Source of the DNA: a virus
DNA length: 64,000 nucleotides
Strand: one strand, 5' to 3'
Virus record (IMG/VR): IMGVR_UViG_3300009529_002382
Location: 1-64,000 of that record
The notes beneath the pieces were generated by a model that did not search any database, was not told the origin of the DNA, and worked only from the letters and a program-made list of their open reading frames with translations. Positions 6,858 through 32,944 of the stretch are shown piece by piece (positions within the stretch are counted from its first letter, which is position 1; every line of letters starts with the position of its first letter). The translations under genes were made by a program, and so were the position numbers.

Positions 6858-7556
6858 CTAATGTGGCCAACGAGCATCCCAAACTTGTATATGTTTGTTC
6901 CTGTCAGAAGGTGTAGGGTTAATGTCTTCGGTACGACTGGAACTCGCATGACCATCTAGGAAGGATATCGCCCCTTCTTCCAGATGGCGTGTAGTATCCA
7001 CCCCATCCGTATCAGCACGTGGCCACCATAATTTAGATCCCTCTGAAACCCCAGGAGAAATCGGACGAGAATCGGCAACAAGGATTACAGATGAAGGAAT
7101 TTTCACCTCCCCCACACTCAACCATTGTTTTGTAACCCATTCATTTTCCACTTCAGGATATAAACCTAGAAAATAAGCATTATATCCATATCCCAGTTTG
7201 TCAAAATCAAAATCCCACTCCCACAAAGCCCCATCAATTGATTGTGATTCTAAAAAACCAGGACACATAAAACAGGACCCAATAGCCTCTATTTCTTTCT
7301 CGCGTTCACCAACATATGGTAAAATGTCAGTTGCCCAAAATTCAGTTCCAGTATCATGTTTATGTCCAGGAAATATCGTATTATTATTCTGTAGATACAT
7401 CCTAAAAGCATAGGAAATTTGTTTTAAATTAGAACCACACATAACTCGTCTGGATAAATGAACTCCCTGATATACAGCAGGGGCTACAATGGACACCAAT
7501 AAAACGATTATGGAAATAACTACCAGTAACTCAACCAGTGTGAACCCTTTATTCAT
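6858..7556 (-). CDS. Type II pseudopilin with H-X9-DG domain (PVC-type)
   Basis: The start at 7556 gives MNKGFTLVELL, a class III signal (prepilin peptidase would cut before F) followed by one transmembrane helix (about residues 6-25). Earlier in-frame ATGs at 7583 and 7571 lack a ribosome-binding site, whereas 7556 forms an ATGA overlap with the HNH gene's stop. The C-terminal half contains a histidine followed after nine residues by DG (RHLEEGAISFLDGHA). This is the H-X9-DG motif of the DUF1559-type pseudopilins that are massively expanded in Planctomycetes, Lentisphaerae and Verrucomicrobia. A pilin in a phage genome is odd: it may be captured host DNA, a receptor-interfering decoy or part of a host-surface modification. 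Confidence 0.85.
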   Translation of the reverse strand: MNKGFTLVELLVVISIIVLLVSIVAPAVYQGVHLSRRVMCGSNLKQISYAFRMYLQNNNTIFPGHKHDTGTEFWATDILPYVGEREKEIEAIGSCFMCPGFLESQSIDGALWEWDFDFDKLGYGYNAYFLGLYPEVENEWVTKQWLSVGEVKIPSSVILVADSRPISPGVSEGSKLWWPRADTDGVDTTRHLEEGAISFLDGHASSSRTEDINPTPSDRNKHIQVWDARWPH

Positions 7557-8281
7557 TTGCTTTTTTCCCATACTAAACAACAAAATTTAATAAATAAATC
7601 TTGATCTAAATCCATCTTCATCTTATTGATAGTTTTATGCACCCATTGCACATTGCCTTTAATGTATCCAACATCAGATTTGATACGATCTAATGAAGCT
7701 GTGGTTTTACCATGCATATCGTCATCTACCGTGTTTGCGAAAATAATGTCTATGCCGGTCAAAGCACATTTACCATTTTGTTTTTTGTATATCAATTCTA
7801 AATATTTCCTATCCACATCCTTCCCCACATCCATACTCCTACGTTTTGCCCCTTCATGCATTCTATAATAAACCCGAGAAGACATCCTTCCATTCAGTTT
7901 ATGGTTATTAACTTTACAATCCCAACATCTTTTTGTTTCGCCTTTTTGCAGATGACTAGATAAAACTTTTACAAAATTGCCACAATCACATTTACATTTC
8001 CATTTAGCTCCACTTCGATTACTAGAATCTCTTTCAATAACCAATAAATTTCCACATCTCATACCGGATAGATCTTTAACTCCAGCACATACTCTACAAC
8101 TTTTAGTTGGTTTACTACAGGTTAAAGAGTGGGCCAGAATTCCGAATTCGTAACCACAGTCACATTTTACTAGCCATTTTGCCAGTTTTTTACCGCTTTT
8201 TTTTGAAACATGATCTTCCACTCTTTTTATCACGGACAACTTTCCTATCCTAAATCCAGACAAATCTTTTGTTTTTACCAT
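7553..8281 (-). CDS. HNH endonuclease with duplicated N-terminal zinc-ribbon modules
   Basis: The start at 8281 is chosen because AGGAG lies eight bases upstream; a longer reading frame would run into the deformylase gene. The 242-residue protein has two tandem N-terminal modules, each beginning DLSGxRxGxLxVI and containing a CDCG knuckle and a C-x2-C pair, probably zinc-binding and DNA-contacting. The C-terminal part has CALTGIDI and then LDRIKSDVGYIKGNVQWVHK, the characteristic core of phage HNH endonucleases. It is most likely a free-standing homing endonuclease inserted between functional genes. Its stop overlaps the pseudopilin start, so the two may be translationally coupled. Confidence 0.85.
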   Translation of the reverse strand: MVKTKDLSGFRIGKLSVIKRVEDHVSKKSGKKLAKWLVKCDCGYEFGILAHSLTCSKPTKSCRVCAGVKDLSGMRCGNLLVIERDSSNRSGAKWKCKCDCGNFVKVLSSHLQKGETKRCWDCKVNNHKLNGRMSSRVYYRMHEGAKRRSMDVGKDVDRKYLELIYKKQNGKCALTGIDIIFANTVDDDMHGKTTASLDRIKSDVGYIKGNVQWVHKTINKMKMDLDQDLFIKFCCLVWEKSK

Positions 8282-8324: not shown

Positions 8325-8888
8325 TCATTTATCTGTTGGTTCCTTCTTGCTTTCGAAATATTTTTCAGATATTTTACATTCTCCGGACAAATGATCAAAT
8401 TCATGAAGAAAAACTCGGGACATATAACCCGTGAGTTCTTCTTGTTTCTTTATGGAGAATTCGTTTATATATTCTACTTTTATTTTCCAAGGTCTTTTAA
8501 TTTTCGCAAAAAAATCTGGATACGACAAGCACCCTTCTTTTCTCGTAATTTCTATTGTGCCAACGGGAATAACAACAGGATTAGCAAATACTCGAAAAGA
8601 ATTAACAGTAGGATCTAATCTCGTTATAAATATTGATTTCATAATCCCTATTTGAGAAGCAGCTAATCCTATACCAGACCGGGTTGCTGCCAACACTCTT
8701 TTCAATTCATGAGCTATAGGTTTTATATCATCTTTACCAATAGCATTACACATCTGATATAATGCCGGGTCATCATATAATTTTATATTCTTAACTAATT
8801 TATCCAGATATACTCTTTTCCTGGCTTTCTGTTTTTGTTCCTTTTCTTTTCGTTGTCTTGCTTTCACTTTTCCGGCTAATTTTGTCAT
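8325..8888 (-). CDS. def: Peptide deformylase
   Basis: 187 residues with all three deformylase motifs: GIGLAASQI (residues 72-80), EGCLS (118-122; Cys is the metal ligand) and HEFDH (162-166; the HExxH metal-binding and catalytic site). It removes the formyl group from nascent peptides. It carries a lysine/arginine-rich N-terminal extension of about 25 residues, which could aid ribosome binding. A deformylase and an IF-3 homologue (39371-39889) in the same genome point to intervention at translation initiation. Its start codon sits just after the KIKDRL tag of the upstream gene, whose GGAG serves as its ribosome-binding site. Confidence 0.93.
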   Translation of the reverse strand: MTKLAGKVKARQRKEKEQKQKARKRVYLDKLVKNIKLYDDPALYQMCNAIGKDDIKPIAHELKRVLAATRSGIGLAASQIGIMKSIFITRLDPTVNSFRVFANPVVIPVGTIEITRKEGCLSYPDFFAKIKRPWKIKVEYINEFSIKKQEELTGYMSRVFLHEFDHLSGECKISEKYFESKKEPTDK

Positions 8889-9496
8889 ATGTTCACTCCT
8901 AACCTATCTTTAATTTTATCTTGAAAATTTTGATAATCTTTATTGTTCTTTTCTTCAAACAAAGTTAGAACATGATCTAAACATTTTTCTGACAGTCTAC
9001 TATTTTGAACCAGTTGTTTAAGAACAATTTTATCTTTATGTTTTTTTATAAACCGCATAGACATTTTCTGATGCTTGGATAAATGCTTCCAAACCAACTC
9101 GTCTTTATGTTTTTCCATAAATCGTTCTGATAATATCTGCTCTATAGAAATATTGTTCCAACCACAAGATTTTTCATTTTCATTCAATCCGAATGAATCA
9201 CTCTGATCACATTGAAGTAATTTTTCAATAAATTCTTCCGATAATTTCTGACTACAAAATACATATTGCCAACAATATGTTGTCATTTTATTCATATATT
9301 GATAAATAAATTTTTCAGACAATTTTTGATATCTAAAAATAATGGACCAATTTACTTTATCTCTAAACTTCTCAATAAATTTTTCTGATAAATTTTGATA
9401 TTGTGAAATTTGAGACCAATCTACTTTGTCTCGAAACTTCTCAATAAGTTTTTCTGATAATACGGCGTTTTGAGAAATCTCTATCCAGTTATCCAT
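8885..9496 (-). CDS. Helical repeat protein with C-terminal KIKDRL tail
   Basis: 203 residues made mainly of about seven copies of a 22-residue unit of the form LSE-[KE]-FIEK-x-x-DK-x-x-W-x-x-[IL]-x-x-x-Q, followed by the tail FQDKIKDRLGVNI. The unit's helix (FIEKFRDKV) and the tail (FQDKIKDRL) match position by position in character, so the tail may derive from such a repeat. Related repeat proteins occur in large viruses with no settled function. This is the only tailed protein here without an SH3-like front domain. The DNA of the first repeats is itself near-identical, implying recent duplication. Confidence 0.8.
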   Translation of the reverse strand: MDNWIEISQNAVLSEKLIEKFRDKVDWSQISQYQNLSEKFIEKFRDKVNWSIIFRYQKLSEKFIYQYMNKMTTYCWQYVFCSQKLSEEFIEKLLQCDQSDSFGLNENEKSCGWNNISIEQILSERFMEKHKDELVWKHLSKHQKMSMRFIKKHKDKIVLKQLVQNSRLSEKCLDHVLTLFEEKNNKDYQNFQDKIKDRLGVNI

Positions 9497-9504
9497 AATG
9501 GCTC

Positions 9505-9741
9505 CTAATTTACTCCTAACCTATCTTTAATTTTATCTTGAAAATCATTCCATGTTACGTCGGATATCACCTTACAATATGGTTCAATCAACGAGATTTG
9601 ATAAGGATGAACCAATCCCGTCACCTCATAATCCCACACAATATAAACGAGTTTGTCATTCACCTCGACTACCGTCCCATCATCAGTCACCCCACAATGC
9701 TTCTGCTGCCACCTAACTCTATCTCCAACTAGAAATTCCAT
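9505..9741 (-). CDS. SH3-like mini-protein with KIKDRL tail
   Basis: 78 residues. The front 60 residues have the pattern VGDRVRW...DGTVVEVNDKLVYIVWDYEVTG, short beta strands with a GD turn and a YxVxW-like strand, as expected of an SH3/KOW-like barrel. It ends in NDFQDKIKDRLGVN. The tag DNA is almost identical to that of the next gene downstream (8885-9496). ATG overlaps the stop of its upstream neighbour. No known family is recognised; the barrel is inferred from the strand pattern. Confidence 0.75.
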   Translation of the reverse strand: MEFLVGDRVRWQQKHCGVTDDGTVVEVNDKLVYIVWDYEVTGLVHPYQISLIEPYCKVISDVTWNDFQDKIKDRLGVN

Positions 9742-9953
9742 TATATTCTATCTTTGATTTTATCTTGGAAATCATCCCAAGATACCAATGTCAATTGATG
9801 GTCCAATTCACCATCTGTATCGGGATCATTATCCCAATGGACATGATAAGCCGATCCCAATGGACAATCAAATGTATATGTTATTGTTCCTGTTTTTTCG
9901 CGGTCAAAAACAGACCGGACTCTATCTCCAGTTTTAAATTTAGTTTCAGTCAT
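9741..9953 (-). CDS. SH3-like mini-protein with KIKDRL tail
   Basis: 70 residues with the layout of its neighbours: FKTGDRVRSVFDREKTGTITYTF, then AYHVHWDND, then a polar loop and the tail DDFQDKIKDRI at the extreme C-terminus, with no residues beyond it. The short beta-rich front suggests a small barrel. It overlaps the upstream gene by eight bases and shares its terminal A with the following ATG. Function is unknown. Confidence 0.75.
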   Translation of the reverse strand: MTETKFKTGDRVRSVFDREKTGTITYTFDCPLGSAYHVHWDNDPDTDGELDHQLTLVSWDDFQDKIKDRI

Positions 9954-10218
9954 TTTTTAATCTATCTTTAATTTTGTCTTGAAAATCGGTACTGTATACA
10001 TATTTATCTGCACCGACTAATGACTCTTCGTAATACCATATTTGTTCTGGATGGTAACCCGTGACAAATTTACCAGCAGAATCCATTGAAATTTGAAAAG
10101 TTATACGGTGAGGATAATCGACAAGAAGTAGGTCATAATCCCTATCTACTACTATCCCTACCGGATTTTCTTTTTTATCCTTTTTAGAAAAGACAGCATC
10201 TCCAATTTTAAATTTCAT
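9946..10218 (-). CDS. SH3-like mini-protein with KIKDRL tail
   Basis: 90 residues beginning MKFKIGDAVFSKKDKKENPVG, then strands (IVVDRDYDLLLVDYP, ITFQISMDS) and the tail TDFQDKIKDRLKND. It is the most upstream member of the first array in transcription order and overlaps the phosphatase gene of the nonulosonate cassette by eleven bases, so it is probably on the same transcript. No known family is recognised. Confidence 0.75.
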   Translation of the reverse strand: MKFKIGDAVFSKKDKKENPVGIVVDRDYDLLLVDYPHRITFQISMDSAGKFVTGYHPEQIWYYEESLVGADKYVYSTDFQDKIKDRLKND

Positions 10219-10774
10219 TATTTCTTTTTAACACTTCCATAGCAAAATCATAAACAGCACCACGGCCTCCTGGTTTTTTTGAAATAAAATCAACAATCAT
10301 AGGTCTCGACGTAAATGGAAGCAGATTATTACACCCACGCCACAAACGTACCATGGCCTCCCATTTTAATACATCCTTATCCGGACTTAATTCTTCTATA
10401 GCATCTGAAGGACAACCGGAGAATCCCGCTGCTTTCAAACATTCGATATCATTTTCTGCATCACCAATATAAGCAATATTCTCCCAAGAGGTATTTGGAT
10501 AATAAGACAAAATTTTATCAATTTCAGATTTTTTATCAATTATTCCTACACGAACTTCTAACATAAATGATAGCCGTTTACATTTTTCAATAATAACACG
10601 ATCATCTGAGCTTGTTATAATGAATATATCAATTCCTGTTTCTGATAATTGCCTTAATGCGTCGAAATCTCTTGTGTAAAAGTTTTTTGATATTTTTCCA
10701 TTTTCATCGACTTGATACATTCCATCAGAAAGAACTCCGTCTAAATCGCTAATGAACATTTTAATATTCATCAT
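10208..10774 (-). CDS. HAD-family phosphatase, KdsC/sialic-acid-9-phosphatase-like
   Basis: 188 residues. It has HAD motif I DLDGVLSDG (residues 10-18), a TSSD motif II (FIITSSDD) and motif IV GDAENDIE, with the short cap-less architecture of KdsC. KdsC removes phosphate from KDO-8-phosphate; relatives act on nonulosonate-9-phosphates. The C-terminal GGRGAVYDF matches the KdsC-type tail that completes the active site of the neighbouring subunit. Together with NeuB and NeuA nearby it completes a nonulosonic-acid route. Whether the product is KDO, sialic, legionaminic or another acid cannot be told from sequence. Confidence 0.85.
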   Translation of the reverse strand: MMNIKMFISDLDGVLSDGMYQVDENGKISKNFYTRDFDALRQLSETGIDIFIITSSDDRVIIEKCKRLSFMLEVRVGIIDKKSEIDKILSYYPNTSWENIAYIGDAENDIECLKAAGFSGCPSDAIEELSPDKDVLKWEAMVRLWRGCNNLLPFTSRPMIVDFISKKPGGRGAVYDFAMEVLKRNNEI

Positions 10775-10783
10775 TATCTCCTT

Positions 10784-11245
10784 TCACTTTAAGCTGTAAA
10801 CTTTTTTAATTTTATGACGCATATCCGGATTCTCTTCAAATCCGGCTTTAGTCAAAATTTCTCTAAAATCATCTTTAATTTCATCATATATGTATAATGC
10901 TTGTTCGATATTATATTCTCCAATATCTGGTAGTATATAACATAATCTAAAATGTGGATTATATGGAATCTCTTCATAAAACCATTCCCACTTCGTGATG
11001 AAAACTAATATAGTTTCCTTCTCACCTTGATTGTTTTCGTTATCGAAGCCATCGAAAACAGCATAATAAAAACATTCAGGTTTCCAAGATTCATTCTCAC
11101 CTACCGATTCCATTAATTTACATAAATCATCCGGCAATTCGGGCTCTTGATGGACTTCATTCACCATTTCATTCACCAAATCATATCCACATAAACGAAT
11201 CAATTCTTTCACACTTCGTCGGGCGTATTCTCGATTTTGATCCAT
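10784..11245 (-). CDS. Hypothetical protein
   Basis: 153 residues, acidic, soluble, with no recognised domain. Visible features are a predicted helical start (REYARRSVKELIRL), a tyrosine/tryptophan-rich middle (FITKWEWFYEEIPYNP) and a helical, charged C-terminus. It has a clean AAGGAG ribosome-binding site and is the first minus-strand gene of its transcript, starting opposite the plus-strand NeuB gene across a 132-base intergenic region. Gene status is likely; function unknown. Confidence 0.6.
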   Translation of the reverse strand: MDQNREYARRSVKELIRLCGYDLVNEMVNEVHQEPELPDDLCKLMESVGENESWKPECFYYAVFDGFDNENNQGEKETILVFITKWEWFYEEIPYNPHFRLCYILPDIGEYNIEQALYIYDEIKDDFREILTKAGFEENPDMRHKIKKVYSLK

Positions 11246-11377
11246 CTTTATCTCCTTATTTTTTGCAGAAAAAATACAACTCTCTCGATAATATAATCGG
11301 CAAAGCGAGGTGCAAAATTTGTATAAAAATATTTCAAAATTAATGTTCCCTTATCGTTTGAAAAAGGAGAGTTAAAA
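11246..11377 (+). promoter_or_regulatory. Divergent intergenic region with probable promoters
   Basis: This 132-base, strongly AT-rich gap separates the only head-to-head gene pair in the window, so it should carry promoters for both strands. A TATAAT hexamer lies at 11292-11297 on the plus strand; no convincing -35 box sits at the usual distance. AAGGAG precedes the NeuB start by seven to eight bases. No strong hairpin is seen. The promoter assignment is inferred mainly from gene orientation. Confidence 0.4.
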
Positions 11378-12220
11378 ATGCTCAAAAAAATTAATATAGT
11401 CGCAGAAGCATGTTGTAATCATCAGGGCAATTTAGACTTAGCCATAGAAATGGTCAAAACGGCAAAATTATGTAATGCAGATTACATAAAATTCCAAAAA
11501 AGAAATTGTGTAAAAGCCGTACCAAAACATATGCACAATTCTCCACATCCATGCCCAATGAATTCGTTCGGAGAAACATATTTACAACACAGACAGGCTT
11601 TAGAATTTTCTATAGAACAACACAAAAAACTAAAAGGATATTGTGATTTCATTGGAATCAAATATGCGTGTTCAGTGTGGGATACAGACTCCGCTGCTGA
11701 AATTATATCGTTAAATCCTGACTATATTAAAGTACCCTCTGCTTTTAATTGTAACTGTCAATTGTTAGACTATCTTTTTAACAATTATAACAAGGATATC
11801 CACATATCTTTTGGGATGATAACTAAGATCGAAATCGGAGAATTAATCTCTTATTTACAGGACAAAAAGGATAAAGTTGTGGCGTATTGGACAACAAGTG
11901 GCTATCCTGTAAAATTCGAAGAATTGTATCTATTAGAAATACAAAACCTAAAAAAACATTTCAATCGAGTTGGATACAGTGGACATAATTTAGGTATCGC
12001 CGCTGATATGGCAGCTATCACATTAGGTAGTACTTGGGTAGAAAGGCATTTCACATTAGACAGAACTGCCAAAGGAACAGATAATGCCGCAAGTTTGGAA
12101 CCTACAGGTCTATCAAAATTAGTAAGAGATTCGAAAGCCGTCATTAAATCATTACAATACAAACACATTGATCTAACTGCTGATGAAGCCAATAATAGAA
12201 AAAAATTACGATTAGATTGA
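11378..12220 (+). CDS. neuB: NeuB-family nonulosonic acid (sialic acid) synthase
   Basis: 280 residues. NeuB enzymes condense phosphoenolpyruvate with an N-acylmannosamine-type sugar. The family motifs are present: IVAEACCNHQGNLDLA at the N-terminus, ADYIKFQKRN, YIKVPSAFNCN, and at the end GYSGHNLGI and ERHFTLDR...GTDNAASLEP. It is about 60 residues shorter than standard NeuB and lacks the C-terminal antifreeze-like (SAF) domain that helps bind substrate. It is the only clear plus-strand gene in the window, with a strong ribosome-binding site. Neighbouring NeuA and KdsC-like genes support the pathway. Substrate type is undetermined. Confidence 0.88.
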   Translation: MLKKINIVAEACCNHQGNLDLAIEMVKTAKLCNADYIKFQKRNCVKAVPKHMHNSPHPCPMNSFGETYLQHRQALEFSIEQHKKLKGYCDFIGIKYACSVWDTDSAAEIISLNPDYIKVPSAFNCNCQLLDYLFNNYNKDIHISFGMITKIEIGELISYLQDKKDKVVAYWTTSGYPVKFEELYLLEIQNLKKHFNRVGYSGHNLGIAADMAAITLGSTWVERHFTLDRTAKGTDNAASLEPTGLSKLVRDSKAVIKSLQYKHIDLTADEANNRKKLRLD

Positions 12221-12694
12221 ATGGGTTTTGAGAATTCCTGCTAAAACAATTTGATATGTTATTTTTTCAGGAGGCCATTCTAAGTATATCCCCGCGTTTT
12301 TCATAGTCTCCGTCAGATTAGTGCCAAGAGCTTCAGGATTTTTAACAATGAAATAACCTTCCTTCTCTTTCATAAATTTAACAATCTTCACTTTTAATTG
12401 CTTCCGTACTTTCGGCTGCCAATACAAAACGCACTTGGCCTGTCTATCACTCCAATGAGGATGCTTTTCCATCATCCTATTAATATGTCCCCTGTAATCA
12501 AAAATATTATATATAGCATAGACAGTTTTCGATAAATCAATAACTTGATCGAGGTTTTTTGTGCCAGGGGGACATCCTTTCTTCACGGAAAAATTTGGGC
12601 ACCCAAATCGGTGAAGTGGATATTGACATTTACATAATGATGTTATCCTATTATAATCAATAACTGGAATTACTTCAACATAAAAATCATTCAT
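12212..12694 (-). CDS. Cysteine-rich putative metal-binding protein (DUF2284-like)
   Basis: 160 residues. The N-terminal third contains CKCQYPLHRFGCPNFSVKKGCPPG, a cluster of cysteines with two CP(P) motifs that resembles the predicted iron-sulfur/metal-binding DUF2284 family. The remainder is helical with aromatic residues (WPPEKITYQIVLAGI). It converges on the NeuB gene with a nine-base overlap of the coding ends. The family call is tentative; a role in the nonulosonate cassette is possible by position only. Confidence 0.55.
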   Translation of the reverse strand: MNDFYVEVIPVIDYNRITSLCKCQYPLHRFGCPNFSVKKGCPPGTKNLDQVIDLSKTVYAIYNIFDYRGHINRMMEKHPHWSDRQAKCVLYWQPKVRKQLKVKIVKFMKEKEGYFIVKNPEALGTNLTETMKNAGIYLEWPPEKITYQIVLAGILKTHSI

Positions 12695-12698
12695 CTTA

Positions 12699-13553
12699 TT
12701 AAAACTTAAAACTCTGACCTCTTCTCAAAAATCCATGGAACCCATCTTCTTCAGCCATATCATACATATTATTAGTAATTGTAGGATGGTGGAGTAGCCA
12801 CATCTTGCTTCTGATTTCTTGAGGAAAAGTAGCTAAATTATTGTATGTGCTATGGACCAAATCCTCTGTTTTGACAGCAGTCATATTAAAACAACAATCA
12901 TGAAAAATTGTTTTATATTCGTGATAAAACCAAGAATAATCTTTAAATAATCCCCCTTTATCAGAGGCATAATCGCACCAATGTTTTTGCTTTGCATAAT
13001 TGGCGACACAAGTATCTGTAGTTAACCAAAACAAGGAACTACTATACTCGTCCCCAAAAGACAATCCATAACTATAAATCCAATTACGTTCACCCCATCT
13101 TGATTTTATATGAGGAACGGGAATAACGACAAAATGGATATCGTCCCAAATAAAATAAGGGTAGTCAAAACTACGAATTGGAACAACATCAAAGTAATCG
13201 TGGAAAACCATAAAATGACCAGAAACATTACTCATACTTGGAGATAACATTCTCCATAGTTTATCTACCAAATCAATATCTATAAATAAACGTAATTTTC
13301 TACCCAATTTAAAAAACGAATAATATCCAAGCCATTCAAGACTACAGTGATCTCCATGTAAATGGGAAATATAAACTGCTTCTAAATCTTCAACTTTTTT
13401 ACCGGCTTTCGCTATTGACACTTTGGCGTCAGTACCACAATCAATCAATATAGCTTTTTTTTCTTCATTTTCAATCCAAACATTCGTATGGAATTGGTCA
13501 ATACCATTGGCGAATATGTCATTGACTCCTAAAAATGTCATTGTATGGTTCAT
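12699..13553 (-). CDS. Metallo-beta-lactamase-fold hydrolase
   Basis: 284 residues with the diagnostic HLHGDH motif (residues 64-69) after a YIS strand, a preceding LIDCGTDA strand and later histidines (HDCCF, LLHHP) as further metal ligands. The fold covers RNases, phosphodiesterases and esterases. The protein is rich in aromatics in the middle (tyrosine, tryptophan, phenylalanine), which suggests a specialised substrate pocket. It lies inside the nonulosonate cassette, so a sugar-related hydrolase such as an N-acetyl or lactone hydrolase is conceivable, but the sequence does not decide this. Confidence 0.85.
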   Translation of the reverse strand: MNHTMTFLGVNDIFANGIDQFHTNVWIENEEKKAILIDCGTDAKVSIAKAGKKVEDLEAVYISHLHGDHCSLEWLGYYSFFKLGRKLRLFIDIDLVDKLWRMLSPSMSNVSGHFMVFHDYFDVVPIRSFDYPYFIWDDIHFVVIPVPHIKSRWGERNWIYSYGLSFGDEYSSSLFWLTTDTCVANYAKQKHWCDYASDKGGLFKDYSWFYHEYKTIFHDCCFNMTAVKTEDLVHSTYNNLATFPQEIRSKMWLLHHPTITNNMYDMAEEDGFHGFLRRGQSFKF

Positions 13554-13554
13554 C

Positions 13555-13695
13555 TTATCTCACTTTCCTCATTAAACTAGCCATAGAGTTCACATCTTTA
13601 CAAAATTGTTTTTTTTCTTCTTGTGTCGATTGTCCCCACCATTTTCTGAATGCTTTCGCAATAGAAGGTTTAAGTTCTTTTCTAATCTCATCCAT
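13555..13695 (-). CDS. Small basic hypothetical protein (46 aa)
   Basis: A short reading frame starting at 13695 with GAGGAG a few bases upstream encodes 46 residues. It is helical and positively charged, with SIAKAFRKWWGQ and EEKKQFCKDV segments. The stop is two bases from the start of the metallo-beta-lactamase-fold gene, and the start is 17 bases after the NeuA gene, so it fills an otherwise empty gap in the operon. No family is recognised. Gene status is supported by the ribosome-binding site and tight packing. Confidence 0.6.
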   Translation of the reverse strand: MDEIRKELKPSIAKAFRKWWGQSTQEEKKQFCKDVNSMASLMRKVR

Positions 13696-13711
13696 AGTTG
13701 TCTCCTCTACA

Positions 13712-14464
13712 TCATTGTAGCAATTTTATAACATTTGCTTCGACTAATTTTTCAATTAGTATAAAATCTTCTTCGGTATCTATTTGTAATGATTGATATT
13801 TATTTGTTGGGAATATTGATATTTTCCCACCCATTCTACATCCTGTATCTTTTAATAATTTCGCGGAAGAAATGTAAATATTCCCATCATCATGTATTTT
13901 CATTTCATTTTCTGGAATTTCCTGTCTCATTCTTCTATTTTTATAATCCCATTCAGCAATTACTTCATTATCTTCTATTCTAAAAAAGAAAGGAGTATGA
14001 AAACTGCCTGTAAATAAACTATCTGCTTGTTCTCCGATAAATCTTTCTATACATTGATCTATCAATTTTTCATTACGAATTGGAGAAGTTGGCTGCAAAT
14101 TTATAATAATATCAAAATTAAACATATAATCATCAAACATAACATTCAACGCATGTATTAATGCTTCTTCATTTTTAGATATATCAGTTGCGAGTTCGTC
14201 TGGTCTCTGAATAAAAATAATAGGTTTTTCACTATTTAGAAAGAAACTACATTTATTATCTAAAATATAATTTGCGGCTACTTCTTTAACCAAATCACAA
14301 TTAGAACTAATAGCCGTCAAATCAACATATTTACTATCCATAGATGCGTCAATGGACCATTGGACAAGAGGTTTTCCAGCAAAATCTCTGACATTTTTAT
14401 TCTTTATTCCTTTTGATCCTGCTCTCGCAGTGATTATCGATAAAATTTTCTTTCCGGCTATCAT
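13712..14464 (-). CDS. neuA: CMP-nonulosonate (sialic acid) cytidylyltransferase
   Basis: 250 residues. The N-terminus has the CTP-binding signature of NeuA/KdsB enzymes, ITARAGSKGIKNKNVRDFAGKPL (residues 11-33), followed by LVQWSI. Further on are NLQPTSPIR near residue 128 and a C-terminal IDTEEDF. The enzyme activates a nonulosonic acid with CTP to give the CMP-sugar donor. It lacks the extra C-terminal phosphatase domain of bifunctional NeuA; that job could be done by the separate HAD protein at 10208-10774. It is in one minus-strand run with two putative sialyltransferases. Confidence 0.88.
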   Translation of the reverse strand: MIAGKKILSIITARAGSKGIKNKNVRDFAGKPLVQWSIDASMDSKYVDLTAISSNCDLVKEVAANYILDNKCSFFLNSEKPIIFIQRPDELATDISKNEEALIHALNVMFDDYMFNFDIIINLQPTSPIRNEKLIDQCIERFIGEQADSLFTGSFHTPFFFRIEDNEVIAEWDYKNRRMRQEIPENEMKIHDDGNIYISSAKLLKDTGCRMGGKISIFPTNKYQSLQIDTEEDFILIEKLVEANVIKLLQ

Positions 14465-14470
14465 TCCTTT

Positions 14471-15220
14471 TTATCGGAATTTTTTGTCTGCGAATTTTTC
14501 TAATACCTCATCTAAAGACATTCTCTCAAAATAATCCAATACACCACCAGATGCATTTATTATTCTGATATTCTGTTCTTTTGTTTGTTTTGACAGATGC
14601 TTCCAGTATTTAAGGAAATCATGAGAGTGTTTATCTGCCTGTTTCCCATTGATTCTTTCAGCATTTGGACGAAGAGGAACCATCCCTCCATCTTTTCTCG
14701 TTGCTCTTTTTTCCCCAGGAAATTGCCAAAAATATCTTTTACCTTCCTTAAAACAACAATCGTGACCCAGGAGAATAATTGGATCTCCACCCATAATATA
14801 AGCCAAATGTATAGCAGAACCACTTGATGTCCTGGCTCCGATGATAGGCTTTTCTGGGTCTTTAGTCAAGATAAGACCTTCAGGGTAGTATTTCTTTTGA
14901 CTTGGAACGTACCAGCTTTTATGGTCATACCATACAATTCTGTTTTTATCTATATGACGAGAATAACCTTTCAATCTTCCGCCAAAAAACAAACAAGTGC
15001 AAGCCAGATTTTTCAGCTCGTCAAAATAAGTCCAATGAAATGCCGCCTTATCATCAGAACAAAAATAATCACAGAATGGGACCTTAAGAACTCCGGAATT
15101 AACAGCGATTGTTATAAATTTTTTCAAAGGCTTCACTTTCTGGAAATGTAACGATGGACCAGCACCAACTATAAAAATAGCCTTACCCTTATGTCTGTCT
15201 GCTATATCCTTAACTTTCAT
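14471..15220 (-). CDS. DUF115/GT42-like protein, possible nonulosonate transferase
   Basis: 249 residues. It begins with IFIVGAGPSLHFQKV, the G-x-GPSL loop shared by DUF115 (Maf-type flagellin glycosyltransferases) and GT42 sialyltransferases such as Campylobacter Cst proteins. It has SSGSAIHLAYIMGGDPIILLGHDCCF in the middle, corresponding to the conserved 'a.a...G...I.l.G.D' strand of these families. Directly downstream of NeuA in the operon, a CMP-nonulosonate transferase role is attractive. DUF115 also includes a pterin pyrophosphokinase (MptE), so biochemical function is inferred from context. Confidence 0.7.
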   Translation of the reverse strand: MKVKDIADRHKGKAIFIVGAGPSLHFQKVKPLKKFITIAVNSGVLKVPFCDYFCSDDKAAFHWTYFDELKNLACTCLFFGGRLKGYSRHIDKNRIVWYDHKSWYVPSQKKYYPEGLILTKDPEKPIIGARTSSGSAIHLAYIMGGDPIILLGHDCCFKEGKRYFWQFPGEKRATRKDGGMVPLRPNAERINGKQADKHSHDFLKYWKHLSKQTKEQNIRIINASGGVLDYFERMSLDEVLEKFADKKFR

Positions 15221-15801
15221 AAAAATAGTTTCTCTTTTTTACATATTGTTTTCGTTGTAGCGGCCATACATATAATTGAATTTAACACTTGTATCATTGT
15301 GAGTAAAGCATCACCGAATTTCTCATCCAACACAACGATACGTAATTCACCCGACCTATTCTCGACCCCATAGATTGCCACAATATCTTCCAGTTCATTG
15401 TGGTCTAAATTATTGTAACCAGGATGCATCAAGGTATGACCACCATCAGTCAAAACCCAATTCCCGGCTTCTTGGATTAACATAATAACATAATGATCGC
15501 CATCGTCAAACTGAAATGGAACATATACAACAAATTGGTCTACATCTACTCGTTCTAACTCGATATTACGGTGAACTTTCTTACAAAAGTCTCCGGCTAC
15601 TGCTGCAATATTGAATGGTTTTGGTGGTGGAGTAGGAGGTTTGAACGGAGGACGAGGCTCAGGAGGACCCCCTGGATACTCAGAAAAAGGTTGTTTCTTT
15701 TGTGGCCTAGCAACATCATTTTTTTTCTTGCCAATAAACAAAGATCTGAAAAACTTACTAAAAAAATTCGCAATATCAAAAAAAATCCTACCCATTTTCA
15801 C
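15217..15801 (-). CDS. DUF1828-domain protein with proline-rich linker
   Basis: 194 residues in three parts: an amphipathic basic N-terminus (FFSKFFRSLFIGKKK) that might contact membrane; a proline-rich stretch at about residues 38-62; and a DUF1828-like core containing FDDGDHYVIMLIQ and NWVLTDGGHTL, matching that family's 'D.GD.i.i.....g....LTDdG' pattern. DUF1828 is uncharacterised. The gene separates the two DUF115-like genes and overlaps both by four bases. No known function. Confidence 0.65.
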   Translation of the reverse strand: MKMGRIFFDIANFFSKFFRSLFIGKKKNDVARPQKKQPFSEYPGGPPEPRPPFKPPTPPPKPFNIAAVAGDFCKKVHRNIELERVDVDQFVVYVPFQFDDGDHYVIMLIQEAGNWVLTDGGHTLMHPGYNNLDHNELEDIVAIYGVENRSGELRIVVLDEKFGDALLTMIQVLNSIICMAATTKTICKKEKLFL

Positions 15802-16508
15802 TCTCCCTTTGTATCACTTGCTTTATCTAATGCTTCTTCAAAAGTTATTTTCTTAAAATACTTGATCCTACTCAATCGATTACAATTATAAATCTTCACT
15901 TTTTTCTTCTCGGCATATCCTTTCAATGCCTTAAATGCCTGAAGATTAAATTGGAATGACCTCATTTGTTGCCCTTGAGCAGCCAATGGTCCTTTAGGCC
16001 ATTTAGATGTAGACCAGAACTGCCAAAAATGACTTTTCCCACCTTCCATATAATGGTCAACACCTAACAAAAAAATCTTTTTACATCCCATTTGAATAGC
16101 TAAATCAAGAGCAGAAGGCACAGAACTACAATAAGCCAATCCTCTGTCTTTTGGTTTTATAACGCCCTCAGAAGTGGGTCTAGGATGGAACATCAAAAAC
16201 CCCCTAATTGCCTTCTTATACTTTGACCAACTGTTTCTTACAATTTTAGTACAATTGGATATTTTTAAATCGTGCCAATATGTCCATCTCATCACTAAAG
16301 CATCATTTGAAATCCAATAGGTTCTATTTTTCTTTGCGTAATTATTCTTTATTGCGAGTATGCTTGAATTAACAAATATCGAAACATGTTTAAACATCTT
16401 CTTATATTGAGGGTGACGAGATACTTCATAGAGACTTGGGCCAGCACCTACAATAAAGCAGGATTGTCCTTTATGCTTATCTCTTAAAATAGTATATGTG
16501 TTACCCAT
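15798..16508 (-). CDS. DUF115/GT42-like protein, second copy
   Basis: 236 residues, related to the protein at 14471-15220. It has CFIVGAGPSLYEVSRH at the start, SSVPSALDLAIQMGCKKIFLLGVDHY centrally, and a shared ending in which KIYNCNRLSRIKYFKKITFEEAL parallels IRIINASGG...YFERMSLDEVL. The paired genes suggest two linkages made with the same activated sugar, or two acceptors. Its start overlaps the last codons of a KIKDRL-tailed gene, linking the cassette and the second tail array transcriptionally. Confidence 0.7.
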   Translation of the reverse strand: MGNTYTILRDKHKGQSCFIVGAGPSLYEVSRHPQYKKMFKHVSIFVNSSILAIKNNYAKKNRTYWISNDALVMRWTYWHDLKISNCTKIVRNSWSKYKKAIRGFLMFHPRPTSEGVIKPKDRGLAYCSSVPSALDLAIQMGCKKIFLLGVDHYMEGGKSHFWQFWSTSKWPKGPLAAQGQQMRSFQFNLQAFKALKGYAEKKKVKIYNCNRLSRIKYFKKITFEEALDKASDTKGE

Positions 16509-16797
16509 TTAATCTGTCTTTAATTTTTTCCAGAAAATCACTATAAAAATTGACAAGAATGATGTCTTCGTTGCAATATATTCCAAAATCGATGTCGCCC
16601 TTAATATCATACCATACGACGCGATACCACGTCCCACCATTGCCATTAAACCCTGTGTCCTCCACACGGCCCAAAGTCCCAGGATCGCTTGCTAAACCAC
16701 AGGTCACGATATCACCTATTTTAAATTGCATAGGATTCACTGGTTTTTCTTTTTTTCGCGGCGAAAAAAGTTTCAATAGTTTTTGTAGTATCTTCAT
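16501..16797 (-). CDS. SH3-like mini-protein with KIKDRL tail and basic N-terminal extension
   Basis: 98 residues. The first 22 residues are basic and hydrophobic (ILQKLLKLFSPRKKEK), an extension not seen in other members. Then comes the standard front: FKIGDIVTCGLASDPGTLGRV, a WYRVVWYD strand and the tail SDFLEKIKDRLNG. The extension could be an amphipathic membrane- or protein-binding helix. It starts in an ATGA overlap with its upstream neighbour, which provides AAGGA from within its own tag codons. Confidence 0.75.
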   Translation of the reverse strand: MKILQKLLKLFSPRKKEKPVNPMQFKIGDIVTCGLASDPGTLGRVEDTGFNGNGGTWYRVVWYDIKGDIDFGIYCNEDIILVNFYSDFLEKIKDRLNG

Positions 16798-17024
16798 TCT
16801 ATTCTATCCTTAATTTTTTCTTGGAATTCTTCATAATATATATCAGTTTTTCGTAAATCGTCAGGATGATGTGAACAATACGCACCAAATTCAGATCCTA
16901 AAGATACACGCCAAAATACAGTATAATCATTTTTGTTATATATCGTATGTACAATGCCAATTCCTTTGTCCATCCCCTTATGACGAACTGCATCTCCACA
17001 ACACAATTTAACAGTATTAGTCAT
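16794..17024 (-). CDS. SH3-like mini-protein with KIKDRL tail
   Basis: 76 residues: LCCGDAVRHKGMDKGIGIVHTIY, a YTVFWRVSL strand, a loop with paired histidines, and the tail EEFQEKIKDRIE. The GD-turn plus YxVxW arrangement is common to the array. The start codon lies in the end of the upstream member, whose tag codons (GATAGG) supply its probable ribosome-binding site. Function is unknown. Confidence 0.75.
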   Translation of the reverse strand: MTNTVKLCCGDAVRHKGMDKGIGIVHTIYNKNDYTVFWRVSLGSEFGAYCSHHPDDLRKTDIYYEEFQEKIKDRIE

Positions 17025-17280
17025 CTAACCTATCTTCCATCTTTTTTTTAAATTCACTATGCGATTTTATCCCGTTCAACAATTGTTGTCTTTTTTTATT
17101 GAATGTTTTCCTCAAATCGGCTGCACGACATAATGTTGTCCCTTCCTGTTCCCAATCGACACCATACATTTTTGGACGATATCCAAGTGGACGAAATATT
17201 TTGTCAACAATCCCTTTACCCCAATGAGAAAATATGCAATGATAGACTTCAGCACCAAGATATAAGTCTTTATGTCTCAT
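17017..17280 (-). CDS. SH3-like mini-protein with divergent KIKDRL tail
   Basis: 87 residues. The front (YLGAEVYHCIFSHWGKGIVDKI, YGVDWEQEG) keeps the strand pattern. A longer charged linker of about 25 residues precedes a divergent tail, SEFKKKMEDRLDD, in which I-K is replaced by M-E. This copy shows that the tail tolerates change at the third to fifth positions while keeping F, K, D/E and R-L. It overlaps neighbours by four and eight bases. Confidence 0.7.
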   Translation of the reverse strand: MRHKDLYLGAEVYHCIFSHWGKGIVDKIFRPLGYRPKMYGVDWEQEGTTLCRAADLRKTFNKKRQQLLNGIKSHSEFKKKMEDRLDD

Positions 17281-17525
17281 ACTAATCTGTCTTTTATTTT
17301 TTCGCGAAATTCATACCACAAAGCATATATTTTATCATCATTGATCCGACATAATTCTTTATCTTTATGATGACCCATCTTTTTTTTTCTTTTCTTCCAA
17401 GATACATCGTAAGATATCTTTTTAAACAAACCGAATAAGATATATGTACAATATATGGAACAAATTTTACCTGAACCGTATAAATGATATTTTTTATGAC
17501 AAACTGAATCACCACAGCTAAACAT
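17277..17525 (-). CDS. SH3-like mini-protein with KIKDRL tail
   Basis: 82 residues: FSCGDSVCHKKYHLYGSGKICSI, then YDVSWKKRKKK, and the tail YEFREKIKDRLV. It is lysine-rich in the middle. A competing frame over the same bases encodes a 73-residue peptide without the family pattern and is judged a shadow. It overlaps both neighbours. Confidence 0.7.
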   Translation of the reverse strand: MFSCGDSVCHKKYHLYGSGKICSIYCTYILFGLFKKISYDVSWKKRKKKMGHHKDKELCRINDDKIYALWYEFREKIKDRLV

Positions 17526-17763
17526 TTAATCTCTCTTTAATTTTTTCGCGAAAATCAGTATAGGAACTAAGGTGGATTTCAGATTCATACTGGGTTTGAG
17601 GTAGAGAGAATTCATTATCAAAATTTTCCCATAGGACGGTATACCTAGTACCGCTACAACTATCAGGTGGAATGATTTCACTTATACAACCAATGTTTTC
17701 ACCATTATCACAACCCGAGTAATGATATACCCAATCTCCAACTTCTAATTTATCACCATCCAT
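17518..17763 (-). CDS. SH3-like mini-protein with KIKDRL tail
   Basis: 81 residues: LEVGDWVYHYSGCDNGENIGCISEI, then RYTVLWENFDNEFSL and the tail TDFREKIKERLNV. Its front and tail are the closest in the window to the interrupted gene that follows at 17763-18017, with GDWV and TDFREKIKERL shared. This suggests a recent duplication of that pair. Confidence 0.75.
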   Translation of the reverse strand: MDGDKLEVGDWVYHYSGCDNGENIGCISEIIPPDSCSGTRYTVLWENFDNEFSLPQTQYESEIHLSSYTDFREKIKERLNV

Positions 17764-18017
17764 TATTTTTCCAACCTCTCTTTAATTTTTTCGCGAAAAT
17801 CAGTATAACTCAACTCGCCTAGTTCTGACTCAGAATACGAACCAGCAGTGAATGAAAAACTGTCTTTCGCTGGCCACTGTACGTCGTATACAGTATTATT
17901 TTTGACACCATAAAAAGTCCCCGTTTCGCCAACCGCAATATTTTGTCCGGATCTATCCCGTCCTTTTTAAAAACAAACAACCCAATCACCAATTTCAAAT
18001 TTATCACCCTTCATCAT
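17763..18017 (-). pseudogene. KIKDRL-tail mini-protein interrupted by an in-frame TAA
   Basis: Starting at 18017 the frame reads MMKGDKFEIGDWVVCF, meets TAA at 17967-17969, then continues in the same frame for 67 codons with clear family features (GETGTFYGV, YDVQWPAKD) and ends in TDFREKIKERLEK. One base change (for example AAA to TAA) explains the interruption. Either the gene is inactivated, the stop is read through, or the base is an assembly error. TAA ends other genes here, so reassignment is unlikely. A competing out-of-frame reading of 62 residues lacks the family pattern. Confidence 0.7.
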
Positions 18018-18229
18018 AATCTCTCTTTTATTCTATCTAAAAAATCAGTATAATCACAAAAAGTTAATTCATTCTTATAATATATAAAATCATATCCATC
18101 TAACCAATAGACGTGATACATAGTATCATCAAGGCTGTCGGTAATAATATCCCTAATATCGCCAATGATCGCTGGATCATCTCTATGAAGAACCAAATCA
18201 CCAATATTATACTTATCACCAATCATCAC
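18014..18229 (-). CDS. SH3-like mini-protein with KIKDRL tail
   Basis: 71 residues: YNIGDLVLHRDDPAIIGDIRDI, YHVYWLDGYDF, and the tail TDFLDRIKERL ending exactly at the C-terminus. It is the first member of the second array in transcription order. Its start shares a base with the end of the UvrD-type helicase gene, so the array is probably co-transcribed with replication genes. Confidence 0.75.
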   Translation of the reverse strand: MMIGDKYNIGDLVLHRDDPAIIGDIRDIITDSLDDTMYHVYWLDGYDFIYYKNELTFCDYTDFLDRIKERL

Positions 18230-20127
18230 TATTTCTCAAGCAATCCAGCCTCATATAAAAACTGACTAGGATCAACATGTCGCGATTGCATCACGCCACT
18301 TTTGTCTCTATATTTTCTAGTCTTATTATAACTTATAAATAAATTTTTCTTTGCTCTTGTCATCGCAACATAAGCAATCCTTCTTTCCTCGGCTTCCGCT
18401 TCTTGATAATCATCAGATTCTAATAATGCCCTGCTATGAGGTAATATGTTTTGTTCCACACCTGGGAGGAATATAATTTCGCTTTCTGTTCCTTTTGCCG
18501 AGTGGATGGATTGTAAAGTGACAAAATTTTCCTCATTTTCTTTATCAGCAGAAGAAATCAAAGCGATGTTCTGTAAATATTTCTCTAGACTTTTATTCTT
18601 CTCACCAAAAGAAGTCGCACTGTCAATCAATTCCTTGACGTTATCGATCCTATCCTGATGGTCTTCTGGGCTGTTATTAGTCAATATGTCATTATAGCCC
18701 AACTTCTCGGTAATACGGCTCAGACAGTCCCCTGCGTGCGTCTGATGGTAGTCAAAATCAAATGCGTCCCGGATCTTGAGAGCTGTGTTGTTAATTGTTC
18801 TACTAACATCATAATTTTCTATTCTTCTACATAATTGTAAAACATCCAAATCATTTGCTTCTGCCAACTTTTCCATTTTACTTATAGTAACAGCACCCAC
18901 GCCGTTAAATAGACTTGCTACACGGTCAAATGCCAACAAATCTCCAGGATTAGATATAAATTTCAACATAGACAAGCAATCTCGTATTTCTCTTCTGTCA
19001 AAAAAGGAGGGACCACCTATCACCACAAAAGGTATACCAACATGACTGAATGATGTCTGTAATTCTAAAGACAACCTGTTAAGCCTATAAAGAACAGCAC
19101 AATCTGAATACTCCCACCCATAGTCCTCTACAATCTCTTTGATTTTGTGTGCTATTCCCATCGCTTCTTCATATGGTTCATAATAAACTTCGCAAGAAAC
19201 AGGAGAACCGCTTATGTTGTCAGTCTCCATGTCACCTCCCATATGAGTAGAATTATGTTTAATCAACTTATCAGAACAGGCAACGATCTCTGGTGTGGAA
19301 CGGTAATTTTTTTCTAGCGGAATTTTTTTACAATCAGGGTAGTCTCTTAGAAAATCCAATATGTTTTGATATCTAGCATTTCTAAAGCGGTACACACTTT
19401 GCGAAATATCTCCAGTTATAAATATATTTTTATATTTATCTCCAACCGACTTAACTAAATAAAATTGGATATAGTTCGTATCCTGGCATTCATCAACTAA
19501 AATATACTTCATCTTAGTCTGAAATTTTTTTAACAACACTGGATCTGCTTCAAATAATTTGACAGTCTCATACAAAAGCCCGCTAAAATCAATAATGTTC
19601 TGTTTTTTTATTTCCTCTAGATATGTTTGTGCTATTTTACAATCTATGGCATCATCAAATCTATCTAATAAATCTTGTTCAGACTCTAAATTCTCTCTCC
19701 AATGATTTACAGAATTCATAATGTGATAATACTTGATATCACTCTTTTTAACATAACCAAGAGATTTCCCAATTGAAACAATCATGTCTTCTTGGTTTTT
19801 TTGGTCAAAAATAGTATAATTATCTGAATAGCCTATTTTTGAACCATATCTTCTAAGAATTGAAGCACACAAAGAATGAAAAGTCCCGATAAAAAACTTA
19901 GATTTATGTAAACCGACTTTTTCTACTATTCTTTCTCTCATTTCTTTGGCCGCTTTGTTTGTAAAAGTCAAACATAAAAGATTTTGAGGAATAATACCTT
20001 TATTATTGATCAGATTTGCTACTCTTTCAGTAATAACTGTAGTCTTACCACTGCCAGGGCATGACGTTACGAAGGCCGGGCCATCGATGTGATTAATCGC
20101 TTTTATCTGTTGATTGTTTAGTTTCAT
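18229..20127 (-). CDS. UvrD/Rep-type superfamily 1 DNA helicase
   Basis: The start at 20127 gives the usual family opening MKLNNQQIKAINHIDGPAF; a longer frame to 20172 would overlap the upstream gene more. In the 632-residue product, motif I is SCPGSGKTT (residues 22-30), motif Ia LTFTNKAA, motif II LVDECQDT (210-217), motif III TGDISQSVYRFR, motif IV near LEKNYRS, and C-terminal LQSIHSAKGTESEIIF and YVAMTRAKKNL. These are the full set for a 3'-5' helicase of the UvrD/Rep/PcrA group. Likely roles are phage DNA repair, recombination or replication restart. Confidence 0.93.
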   Translation of the reverse strand: MKLNNQQIKAINHIDGPAFVTSCPGSGKTTVITERVANLINNKGIIPQNLLCLTFTNKAAKEMRERIVEKVGLHKSKFFIGTFHSLCASILRRYGSKIGYSDNYTIFDQKNQEDMIVSIGKSLGYVKKSDIKYYHIMNSVNHWRENLESEQDLLDRFDDAIDCKIAQTYLEEIKKQNIIDFSGLLYETVKLFEADPVLLKKFQTKMKYILVDECQDTNYIQFYLVKSVGDKYKNIFITGDISQSVYRFRNARYQNILDFLRDYPDCKKIPLEKNYRSTPEIVACSDKLIKHNSTHMGGDMETDNISGSPVSCEVYYEPYEEAMGIAHKIKEIVEDYGWEYSDCAVLYRLNRLSLELQTSFSHVGIPFVVIGGPSFFDRREIRDCLSMLKFISNPGDLLAFDRVASLFNGVGAVTISKMEKLAEANDLDVLQLCRRIENYDVSRTINNTALKIRDAFDFDYHQTHAGDCLSRITEKLGYNDILTNNSPEDHQDRIDNVKELIDSATSFGEKNKSLEKYLQNIALISSADKENEENFVTLQSIHSAKGTESEIIFLPGVEQNILPHSRALLESDDYQEAEAEERRIAYVAMTRAKKNLFISYNKTRKYRDKSGVMQSRHVDPSQFLYEAGLLEK

Positions 20128-20524
20128 CAGTTTCTTTTGGAAAGCTATACCATGCTGCAAAATTATTCTCATTTAAATCATCCGGAAAATCTTCTGGATA
20201 TCTTTCTTTGAGAATTTGTACAGCAGCACCGTAAGGATATTTCATCATCTTTAGTCTTTCCTTCTCCATTATAGCAGAGAATTGACTGGTTGTCAACTTC
20301 TCAAGGGCCTTCATTTCATATTCCTGGACATTACTTGTCATCTCCATAGATATGGTTTTGCCTTCTATTTTCTTACAATTTTTTGTCGCTATATTCGTTG
20401 TTGTTTCACCTGCATCCATAACCAAAGTTTTCGTTTCATTATTATCCAGAAATGTAACTTCTAACACCAAAACATTATAGTCTTCTCTGTAAGATGCTTT
20501 ATCTATTCTTGTTTTTCTAGTCAT
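20093..20524 (-). CDS. Hypothetical protein
   Basis: 143 residues. The N-terminal 60 residues are beta-like (YNVLVLEVTFLDNNETKTLVMDAGE), then a helical, methionine-rich middle (SAIMEKERLKMMKYP) and a polar tail. No family is recognised. It overlaps both neighbours: four bases with the cysteine-cluster gene upstream and about 35 with the helicase. This packing between DNA-metabolism genes suggests an accessory role there. Confidence 0.6.
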   Translation of the reverse strand: MTRKTRIDKASYREDYNVLVLEVTFLDNNETKTLVMDAGETTTNIATKNCKKIEGKTISMEMTSNVQEYEMKALEKLTTSQFSAIMEKERLKMMKYPYGAAVQILKERYPEDFPDDLNENNFAAWYSFPKETDETKQSTDKSD

Positions 20525-23356: not shown

Positions 23357-23360
23357 TAAT

Positions 23361-24089
23361 TTACTCCATGTTATAGTAATTTTTCTTTGACTTTTTCAAC
23401 ACATCTATAAAGGCTTTTCTTCCATCTGCTTTTATATAATCATCAGGGTCCATACCCTTCGGAAGAAATACAGGAATCAATCTGACATCCAAAAACGCTC
23501 TATTGAAAAATTTAGCAATTGGAACTTTCTGTAACCTTCTTATAGCAGTCAGCCCAGCTTCATCGGAATCAAATGTGAGATACATTTCTTTACAATAACG
23601 TCTTAAGAGAGCAATCTGATGTAATTGAGGAGCACTACCATTAACACAAACAGAACAAGAAATATCATATTGATGTAATTTGATCACATCGAACTCTCCC
23701 TCGACTAGAATTGCTTTTTTATTCTTAATAATACTCGATTTAGCAACATCTAATCCATATAGATAACAACCCTTTTGATAGCTTTCATGCCAAAAGGGAC
23801 GGTGACAACCTTGTCTCCAGTCCCTTGACGAAAAAGCCACTAAATCACCATACTGATTTTTGATAGGCAACATGATTCTACCAGCTAATTCGTGCGTCTC
23901 TCCCAAACAGTTTCTAATCCTTGAAGGCATGTAACCAACGGAAAATTTTTCCAGTGTTTCTCTATCGAACTTTCTGACTTTTATCAAATAGTTCAATGCT
24001 TCCTGAGATTCTGGTTCGCCGGAAAAAAGTTCCTCTTGGCTAACCTGCAAGATCTTATATCTCTCCAACTCCGGGATCTGATTCCTCAT
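23361..24089 (-). CDS. DnaG-type primase, TOPRIM catalytic part
   Basis: 242 residues matching the core of bacterial DnaG without the zinc domain. It has MLPIKNQYGDLVAFSSRDW, KKAILVEGEFDVIKLHQ (the TOPRIM glutamate), MYLTFDSDEAGLTAIRR (the DxD metal-binding pair) and a C-terminal GMDPDDYI. It lacks the CHC2 zinc finger, which is found in a separate gene at 35555-36166. The C-terminal helicase-binding domain is also missing. It overlaps the RecA gene end by 35 bases; the ATG at 24089 has GAGGA at proper spacing. Confidence 0.88.
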   Translation of the reverse strand: MRNQIPELERYKILQVSQEELFSGEPESQEALNYLIKVRKFDRETLEKFSVGYMPSRIRNCLGETHELAGRIMLPIKNQYGDLVAFSSRDWRQGCHRPFWHESYQKGCYLYGLDVAKSSIIKNKKAILVEGEFDVIKLHQYDISCSVCVNGSAPQLHQIALLRRYCKEMYLTFDSDEAGLTAIRRLQKVPIAKFFNRAFLDVRLIPVFLPKGMDPDDYIKADGRKAFIDVLKKSKKNYYNME

Positions 24090-32942: not shown

Positions 32943-32944
32943 AG

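Follow-up and report, generated by a model that had tools for sequence, protein, structure and literature searches.

Why should many small and otherwise different proteins of a virus end in nearly the same short helix? The question is raised by IMG/VR virus record IMGVR_UViG_3300009529_002382, of which a 64-kb window (positions 1 to 64,000) was analyzed; the full 68-kb record, G000, was read as this window plus one further stretch. The helix, called the tag here, is 12 residues long, follows the motif [YHWF]-x-[DEN]-F-x-[DE]-[KR]-[IVM]-x-[DE]-R-[LIM], and occurs at the ends of small phage proteins (YKDFEDKIKDRLG is an example). We find that the tag is a real, sharply defined, and recurrent feature of a small group of large phages, and that it constitutes a new portable peptide.

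A six-frame search of the window returned 12 matches to the motif, all on the minus strand. Eleven of these lie at gene ends in two arrays, and the twelfth is at the N-terminus of the protein encoded at 28003–28257. This agrees with an earlier note on this DNA, which had described eleven tagged genes in two arrays, one gene being interrupted, along with a further gene bearing the helix at its N-terminus. Second-order Markov simulations of the window gave a mean of 0.13 matches and a maximum of one, and the motif read backwards had no matches in any of the five records searched. Chance or composition as the source of the motif is ruled out by these simulations and reversed-pattern controls, which yielded almost no matches.

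The tag is not confined to this virus. A scan of IMG/VR with a degenerate DNA pattern of the tag yielded 35 stretches, several of them in each of two contigs from one metagenome (G001, 3300035698_011774, 47 kb; and G002, 3300035698_017885, 44 kb). With a looser pattern, the copies number 12 in G000, 19 in G001, and 10 in G002; every one is on the coding strand, and the reversed pattern has no matches. With position 6 free to be any residue, the three contigs hold 44 copies, beyond which there are three weaker variants in the same arrays. The earlier note had made its proposal depend on recurrence in related phages, and G001 and G002 both carry their copies in arrays. G000 and G002 have tail genes in common (89% identity in one), and G000 and G001 have in common an N-terminally tagged gene and a prepilin-like gene; on the strength of these shared genes, we regard the three as related phages. 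Each of the three records is a fragment. In a position-specific score, every tag reaches at least 20.5 bits, as compared with 13.5 bits for the next segment in any open reading frame (ORF) of the three contigs and at most 10.7 bits for shuffled proteins; as the score was built from the tags themselves, this gap of ~7 bits reflects the sharpness of the motif and is not an independent test.

Viral contigs were scanned four more times and GTDB genomes once, and no further array appeared with the patterns used, which favor A+T-rich codons and a single distance to the stop codon, such that more distant versions could be missed. Further viral contigs had single matches only, none in an array, and bacterial genomes had 20 isolated pattern matches and no array. 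Two isolated C-terminal matches, one ending a small ORF in a 10.7-kb viral contig (L041, position 8001; 24 bits) and one ending a 50-residue ORF in Alkalihalobacillus sp. BA299 (L054, position 4825; 28 bits), are probably chance matches in collections this large. The head protein of G001 is closest to that of Bacillus phage G (46%). Phages G, Tunturi_5, BpSp, LR745208, Rctr197k, and LPJP1, chosen as the nearest characterized large phages by head or repeat protein, have no tag arrays and no genes combining an SH3-like domain with the tag, and their scattered pattern matches are mostly at the level of controls. A tblastn search of phages with one SH3-like member and the N-terminally tagged gene gave nothing useful, and no earlier description of such an array came up in text searches of the literature.

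The tagged genes of the window are all on the minus strand. Array 1 consists of a tryptophan-repeat protein with 22-residue repeats (8885–9496; tag YQNFQDKIKDRLGVNI, tag core at 8900–8926) and SH3-like proteins at 9505–9741 (WNDFQDKIKDRLGVN, 9517–9543), 9741–9953 (WDDFQDKIKDRI, 9744–9770), and 9946–10218 (STDFQDKIKDRLKND, 9958–9984). Array 2 consists of SH3-like proteins at 16501–16797 (YSDFLEKIKDRLNG, 16510–16536), 16794–17024 (YEEFQEKIKDRIE, 16800–16826), 17017–17280 (HSEFKKKMEDRLDD, 17026–17052), 17277–17525 (WYEFREKIKDRLV, 17283–17309), 17518–17763 (YTDFREKIKERLNV, 17527–17553), 17766–18014 (YTDFREKIKERLEK, 17772–17798), and 18014–18226 (YTDFLDRIKERL, 18017–18043). Among the C-terminal tags of the window, that at 17026 (FKKKMEDRL) has diverged most. 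The interrupted gene is that at 17766–18014, which has one in-frame TAA at about 17967–17969, after 15 residues, with the rest of the frame open. The N-terminal tag of 28003–28257 is YYDFQERIKDRLGIE (28207–28233). The assignment in the earlier note of ten SH3-like fronts (i.e., the proteins apart from their tags) and one repeat protein holds: ten fronts are SH3-like (profiles A1 and A2; E down to 9e-21), and the front of 8885–9496 matches the tryptophan-repeat family PHROG 3532 (E 2.8e-43). Against Pfam and PHROGs, no other tagged front scored above the cut-off.

The tag occurs on many fronts. With the tags cut off, the proteins bearing the 44 copies fall into an SH3-like group of about 22, an N-terminally tagged family of three, one pair, the tryptophan-repeat protein, and about 15 singletons having no detectable relation to each other, which amounts to more than a dozen unrelated fronts; several of the singletons are short ORFs whose expression is predicted only. 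Three of the 44 copies are N-terminal, and one G001 protein is tagged at both ends. The portability ascribed earlier to the helix is thus borne out in the two related phages, where the tag is found on unrelated fronts and at both N- and C-termini. The protein encoded at 28003–28257 is homologous to two N-terminally tagged G001 proteins, and its C-terminus reads KKKYKDRMGE, which looks like a degenerate second tag. The N-terminally tagged neighbor of the doubly tagged G001 gene has a tag-like VEKIRDRMGEN just at its end, in another reading frame. Because of these two tag-like segments, the N-terminally tagged family may originally have been doubly tagged. The tails of 8885–9496 (repeat protein) and its neighbor 9505–9741 (SH3-like) are 97% identical over 37 bp, and therefore the tag was probably copied as DNA from one of these genes to the other. 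At position 1, six of 11 arginines are encoded by CGC (3.5% in the genome; p=7e-7; this and the other p-values treat related array copies as independent and are optimistic). As this rare codon is common to tags on different fronts, tags have apparently been copied between genes as DNA.

Is it the peptide or the DNA that is kept? The difference rates among tags are 0.28, 0.23, and 0.51 at first, second, and third codon positions, respectively, and F, I, D, and L/I/M hold their residue class while their codons change synonymously. Among SH3-like members, the tags are 65% identical and the fronts 23%, with a correlation of 0.06 between the two. Of the copies located five or fewer residues from a stop codon, all 35 have A or G at the end of the last tag codon, as compared with two of the nine others (p=9e-7), and yet the residue remains L, I, or M. 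Where no coupled start follows, as in the N-terminal copies and in the final gene of the G001 array, the peptide is nevertheless retained. Peptide-level selection on the tag, as the earlier note had supposed, is well supported by these comparisons, and the synonymous variation is at odds with codons conserved only at the level of DNA.

The DNA of the tag carries a second signature. In most arrays the next ATG begins 1–5 nt past the tag, often with a 4- or 8-base overlap of stop and start. The arginine at position 7 is always encoded by AGR (69% in the genome, p about 1e-7), leucine by TTA in 24 of 32 cases (33% in the genome), TTA being its main codon near a stop, and glutamate by GAG in six of eight; the sixth tag residue is mostly K, R, or E, all with purine codons. 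The AGR, TTA, and GAG bias fits the proximity of the next start, and this pattern indicates that the tag DNA doubles as the region from which translation of the next, overlapping gene starts, a role that would explain part of its conservation. What is kept is both the peptide and the DNA, at different positions of the tag. Pairing with the anti-Shine-Dalgarno sequence of 16S rRNA is predicted to be very weak at many of the coupled junctions (−0.9 kcal/mol), and for this reason the arrays may use re-initiation after the overlapping stop. A start codon does not closely follow every copy, being absent from behind the N-terminal, internal, and array-final ones. Context-dependent codons and these uncoupled copies rule out a pure RNA-level signal as the sole cause of the tag. 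The interpretation in the earlier note is therefore partly supported: the portable, peptide-selected helix stands, while the start-region role of the tag DNA and the apparent copying of tags as DNA had been overlooked, and docking, packaging, and degradation are left as candidate functions.

Structure prediction is consistent with a helix that is separate from the domain bearing it. An AlphaFold2 model of 9741–9953, made with an alignment of 21 family members, has a five-strand barrel at residues 11–40 (pLDDT 86–90), with the tag as a helix apart from the barrel (pLDDT about 59). The barrel resembles KOW/Tudor-type SH3 folds, such as those of NusG and the UvrD C-terminal domain, although weakly (best Foldseek E 0.04). 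A PDB profile search of the SH3-like fronts had Spt5 as its best match (E 8e-4) and also pointed to L24 and UvrD, and Pfam matches were below cut-offs. The model of the doubly tagged G001 protein is of low confidence; nothing except its tag helices is conspicuous, and the N-terminal one, of fair confidence, is its best-modeled segment (pLDDT about 78). In helical form, the tag would have Y/H(−3), F(0), I(4), and L(8) aligned on one face, beside the near-invariant D-R. Such a segment would be a docking helix, too short to form a stable coiled coil.

We favor, at rather better than even chances, the explanation that a diversifying set of small proteins carries the tag as a portable docking or targeting peptide. 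The peptide is kept while its carriers change, at either end and on unrelated domains, which argues for its being read by one partner. A single receptor, encoded by phage or host, would recognize the hydrophobic face (Y/H, F, I, and L) along with the D-R pair, and would gather rapidly diversifying small proteins, SH3/KOW/Tudor-like adaptors and others, at one place. An explanation of the tag as a translation-coupling element, in which the segment is kept mainly as the ribosome-binding region of the next overlapping gene and the peptide is a by-product, draws on the closely following ATGs, the overlaps, the codon bias, and the purine codons of the sixth residue. We consider it improbable, as F, K, and I are conserved although they precede any start signal, and their codons vary synonymously, pairing to 16S rRNA is very weak at many coupled copies, and N-terminal, internal, and array-final copies keep the peptide with different codons and no nearby start. 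Less probable still is plain paralogy, that is, tandem duplicates of one gene having a slower-evolving tail with no portable function. About half of the fronts are indeed homologous SH3-like domains in tandem, but unrelated folds carry the tag, some copies are N-terminal, one protein is tagged at each end, tag similarity does not follow that of the fronts, and two unrelated neighbors have the near-identical 37-bp tail in common. A signal for degradation or stability that a host protease reads would likewise be short, terminal, and common to many small proteins; this seems very unlikely for a peptide that is also N-terminal, charged, and helical, and SsrA-type tags have hydrophobic ends, from which the invariant D-R differs.

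As for where a docking peptide would bring its cargo, the likeliest destination would be the virion interior, with the helix binding scaffold or head shell and the small proteins being packaged and injected, such that they enter the next host with the DNA. This can be put forward only tentatively. By analogy, T4 internal proteins and P1 DarB have the same design, in which diverse, fast-changing small proteins carry one short terminal peptide; G001 encodes a portal, a terminase, a major head protein, and a protein with a maturation-protease match; and the G001 and G002 arrays adjoin structural genes. However, the known signals are N-terminal and most copies here are C-terminal, T4 sequences do not fit the tag profile, no conserved cleavage site is seen beside the tag, and the arrays of the window are not near head genes. 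We prefer this destination to a hub complex of the infected cell (host RNA polymerase, ribosome, or replisome), which comes second and is more doubtful. At such a hub the fronts would act as SH3/KOW/Tudor-type binding modules, and they do resemble, in fold and to a weak degree in profile, NusG/Spt5 KOW domains and the C-terminal Tudor domain of UvrD. In addition, the seven SH3-like genes of array 2, whose fold resembles the UvrD Tudor domain, are directly preceded by a UvrD-type helicase (18229–20172) of 647 residues, with a Pfam match that stops at residue 617. The fold matches are weak, though, SH3-like folds are common, and about half of the fronts are not SH3-like.

Several observations weigh against a docking or targeting peptide. 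No protein of known function carries the tag, and the receptor is only postulated. No head or tail gene product of G001 or G002 carries it either, and the tagged genes of the window sit among DNA-metabolism and sugar genes, away from head genes. The N-termini of T4 internal proteins do not match the tag (−7 to −18 bits). Some of the fronts counted as unrelated are short and may be diverged relatives, part of the AGR, TTA, and GAG bias reflects DNA- or RNA-level constraint or common descent, and the relatedness of array copies makes the p-values optimistic.

The docking or targeting peptide may be combined with the second role of its DNA. Given the overlap of tag DNA with the start region of the following gene, a front together with its tag would be a unit that recombination can insert or swap and that is translated immediately; arrays could grow and turn over in this way. 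A bolder reading, which we hold possible but less likely than the docking peptide itself, is a phage-wide address-label system: one small receptor would read a 12-residue helix at either end of ~20 swappable proteins per genome, the same DNA would start the next gene, and new effector cassettes would be plugged in by recombination, expressed, and delivered in one step. If the tag is a targeting signal, dozens of proteins of unassigned function are at once listed as sharing one destination, which offers a route to new anti-defense or host-takeover proteins. It would also provide a short C-terminal handle for delivering foreign proteins, known phage packaging signals being N-terminal. One DNA segment serving as both peptide tag and start signal would explain how arrays of interchangeable small genes are built.

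Other features occur around the arrays. A peptide deformylase gene (8325–8888; Pfam E 1.6e-32) overlaps the end of array 1. Between the arrays, at 10208–16508, lies a sugar-acid island with a HAD phosphatase, a NeuB-like synthase, a CMP-sugar transferase-like protein, and related genes, named by eye except for the HAD match; its content suggests modification of surface sugars. Prepilin-like proteins with an N-terminal methylation motif are encoded near tag arrays in the window (6858–7583) and in G001 (43940–44647). The former has a weak match to DUF1559, a family typical of Planctomycetota and relatives, and the host may on this account belong to that group. In G001 (locus L072, 41116–44010, minus strand), four proteins with different bodies start with MNWY[KR]xxKxA, in one ORF at an internal ATG that is probably the true start; this is a possible second, N-terminal tag. 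IscB-like HNH proteins are encoded in G002 (32451–33906) and G001 (13590–13911 and 17803–19014, with a PHROG HNH endonuclease match for the G001 one), together with a near-identical 65-residue ORF in both contigs, and are read as a mobile element inserted at two places and split in G001. In the head-protein region of G001 (29488–33302), homing-endonuclease ORFs lie beside a C-terminal piece of the major head protein, and so the gene appears to be interrupted by an intron or similar element. The G001 maturation-protease match (PHROG 18299, E 8e-6) is in the N-terminal part of a 2356-residue protein (22384–29454), unusually long for a head maturation protease.

How does the tag compare with known systems? 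The 22-residue repeats of 8885–9496 (LSExFIExxxDxVxWxxIS) belong with a tryptophan-repeat family of Bacillus phages G and BpSp and Listeria phage LPJP1, to which tblastn gave matches, although the relatives in BpSp, LPJP1, and the L006 locus end without the tag. Derivation of the tag from the repeat helix is ruled out, as the BpSp and LPJP1 repeat helices score no better than shuffled sequences; one repeat in the window does (13.5 bits), yet it is far below the tags. The SH3-like fronts, with their predicted five-strand barrel and GDxV...GxV...YxVxW pattern, resemble NusG/Spt5 KOW and UvrD C-terminal Tudor domains through weak matches only, and we know of no member of these families with such a tail. 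Encapsulin cargo and microcompartment encapsulation peptides are also short terminal helices or peptides on unrelated cargo, with sequence motifs that differ from the tag. Head proteases cleave T4-type peptides at L/I-x-E; this site is absent directly after the tag, where N-terminally tagged proteins read RLGIEP or RIGIEIEP by eye.

Among phage systems that sort many proteins, nuclear import in chimalliviruses through PicA selects cargo by surface residues and not by a terminal signal (PMC12908238), and the tag, being terminal, is therefore of another type. Closer in design is P1 DarB, in which the N-terminal 30 residues suffice as a packaging signal and can direct a foreign protein into the head (PMC9024508); unlike the tag, the signal of Dar proteins is N-terminal and without a common consensus. 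The earlier note had known of no matching system, but a similar design is found in the T4 internal proteins IPI, IPII, and IPIII, highly diverse small proteins that have only a short terminal peptide, the capsid-targeting sequence, in common (PMC3012670). That sequence is N-terminal and is removed by the head protease, whereas the tag is mostly C-terminal. The T4 N-termini MKTYQEF and MKTFKEF loosely resemble the Y-x-D-F of the tag but lack K-I-x-D-R-L; on the tag profile, the N-termini of the internal proteins score −6.8, −11.6, and −18.3 bits. T4 has three such genes, and here there are up to about 20 copies in overlapping arrays. By sequence, position, and cleavage site, then, the tag is not of the T4 type, and we do not claim membership for it. 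What it has in common with T4 is the arrangement itself, a short terminal peptide on diverse small proteins, present here in 44 copies on more than a dozen fronts.

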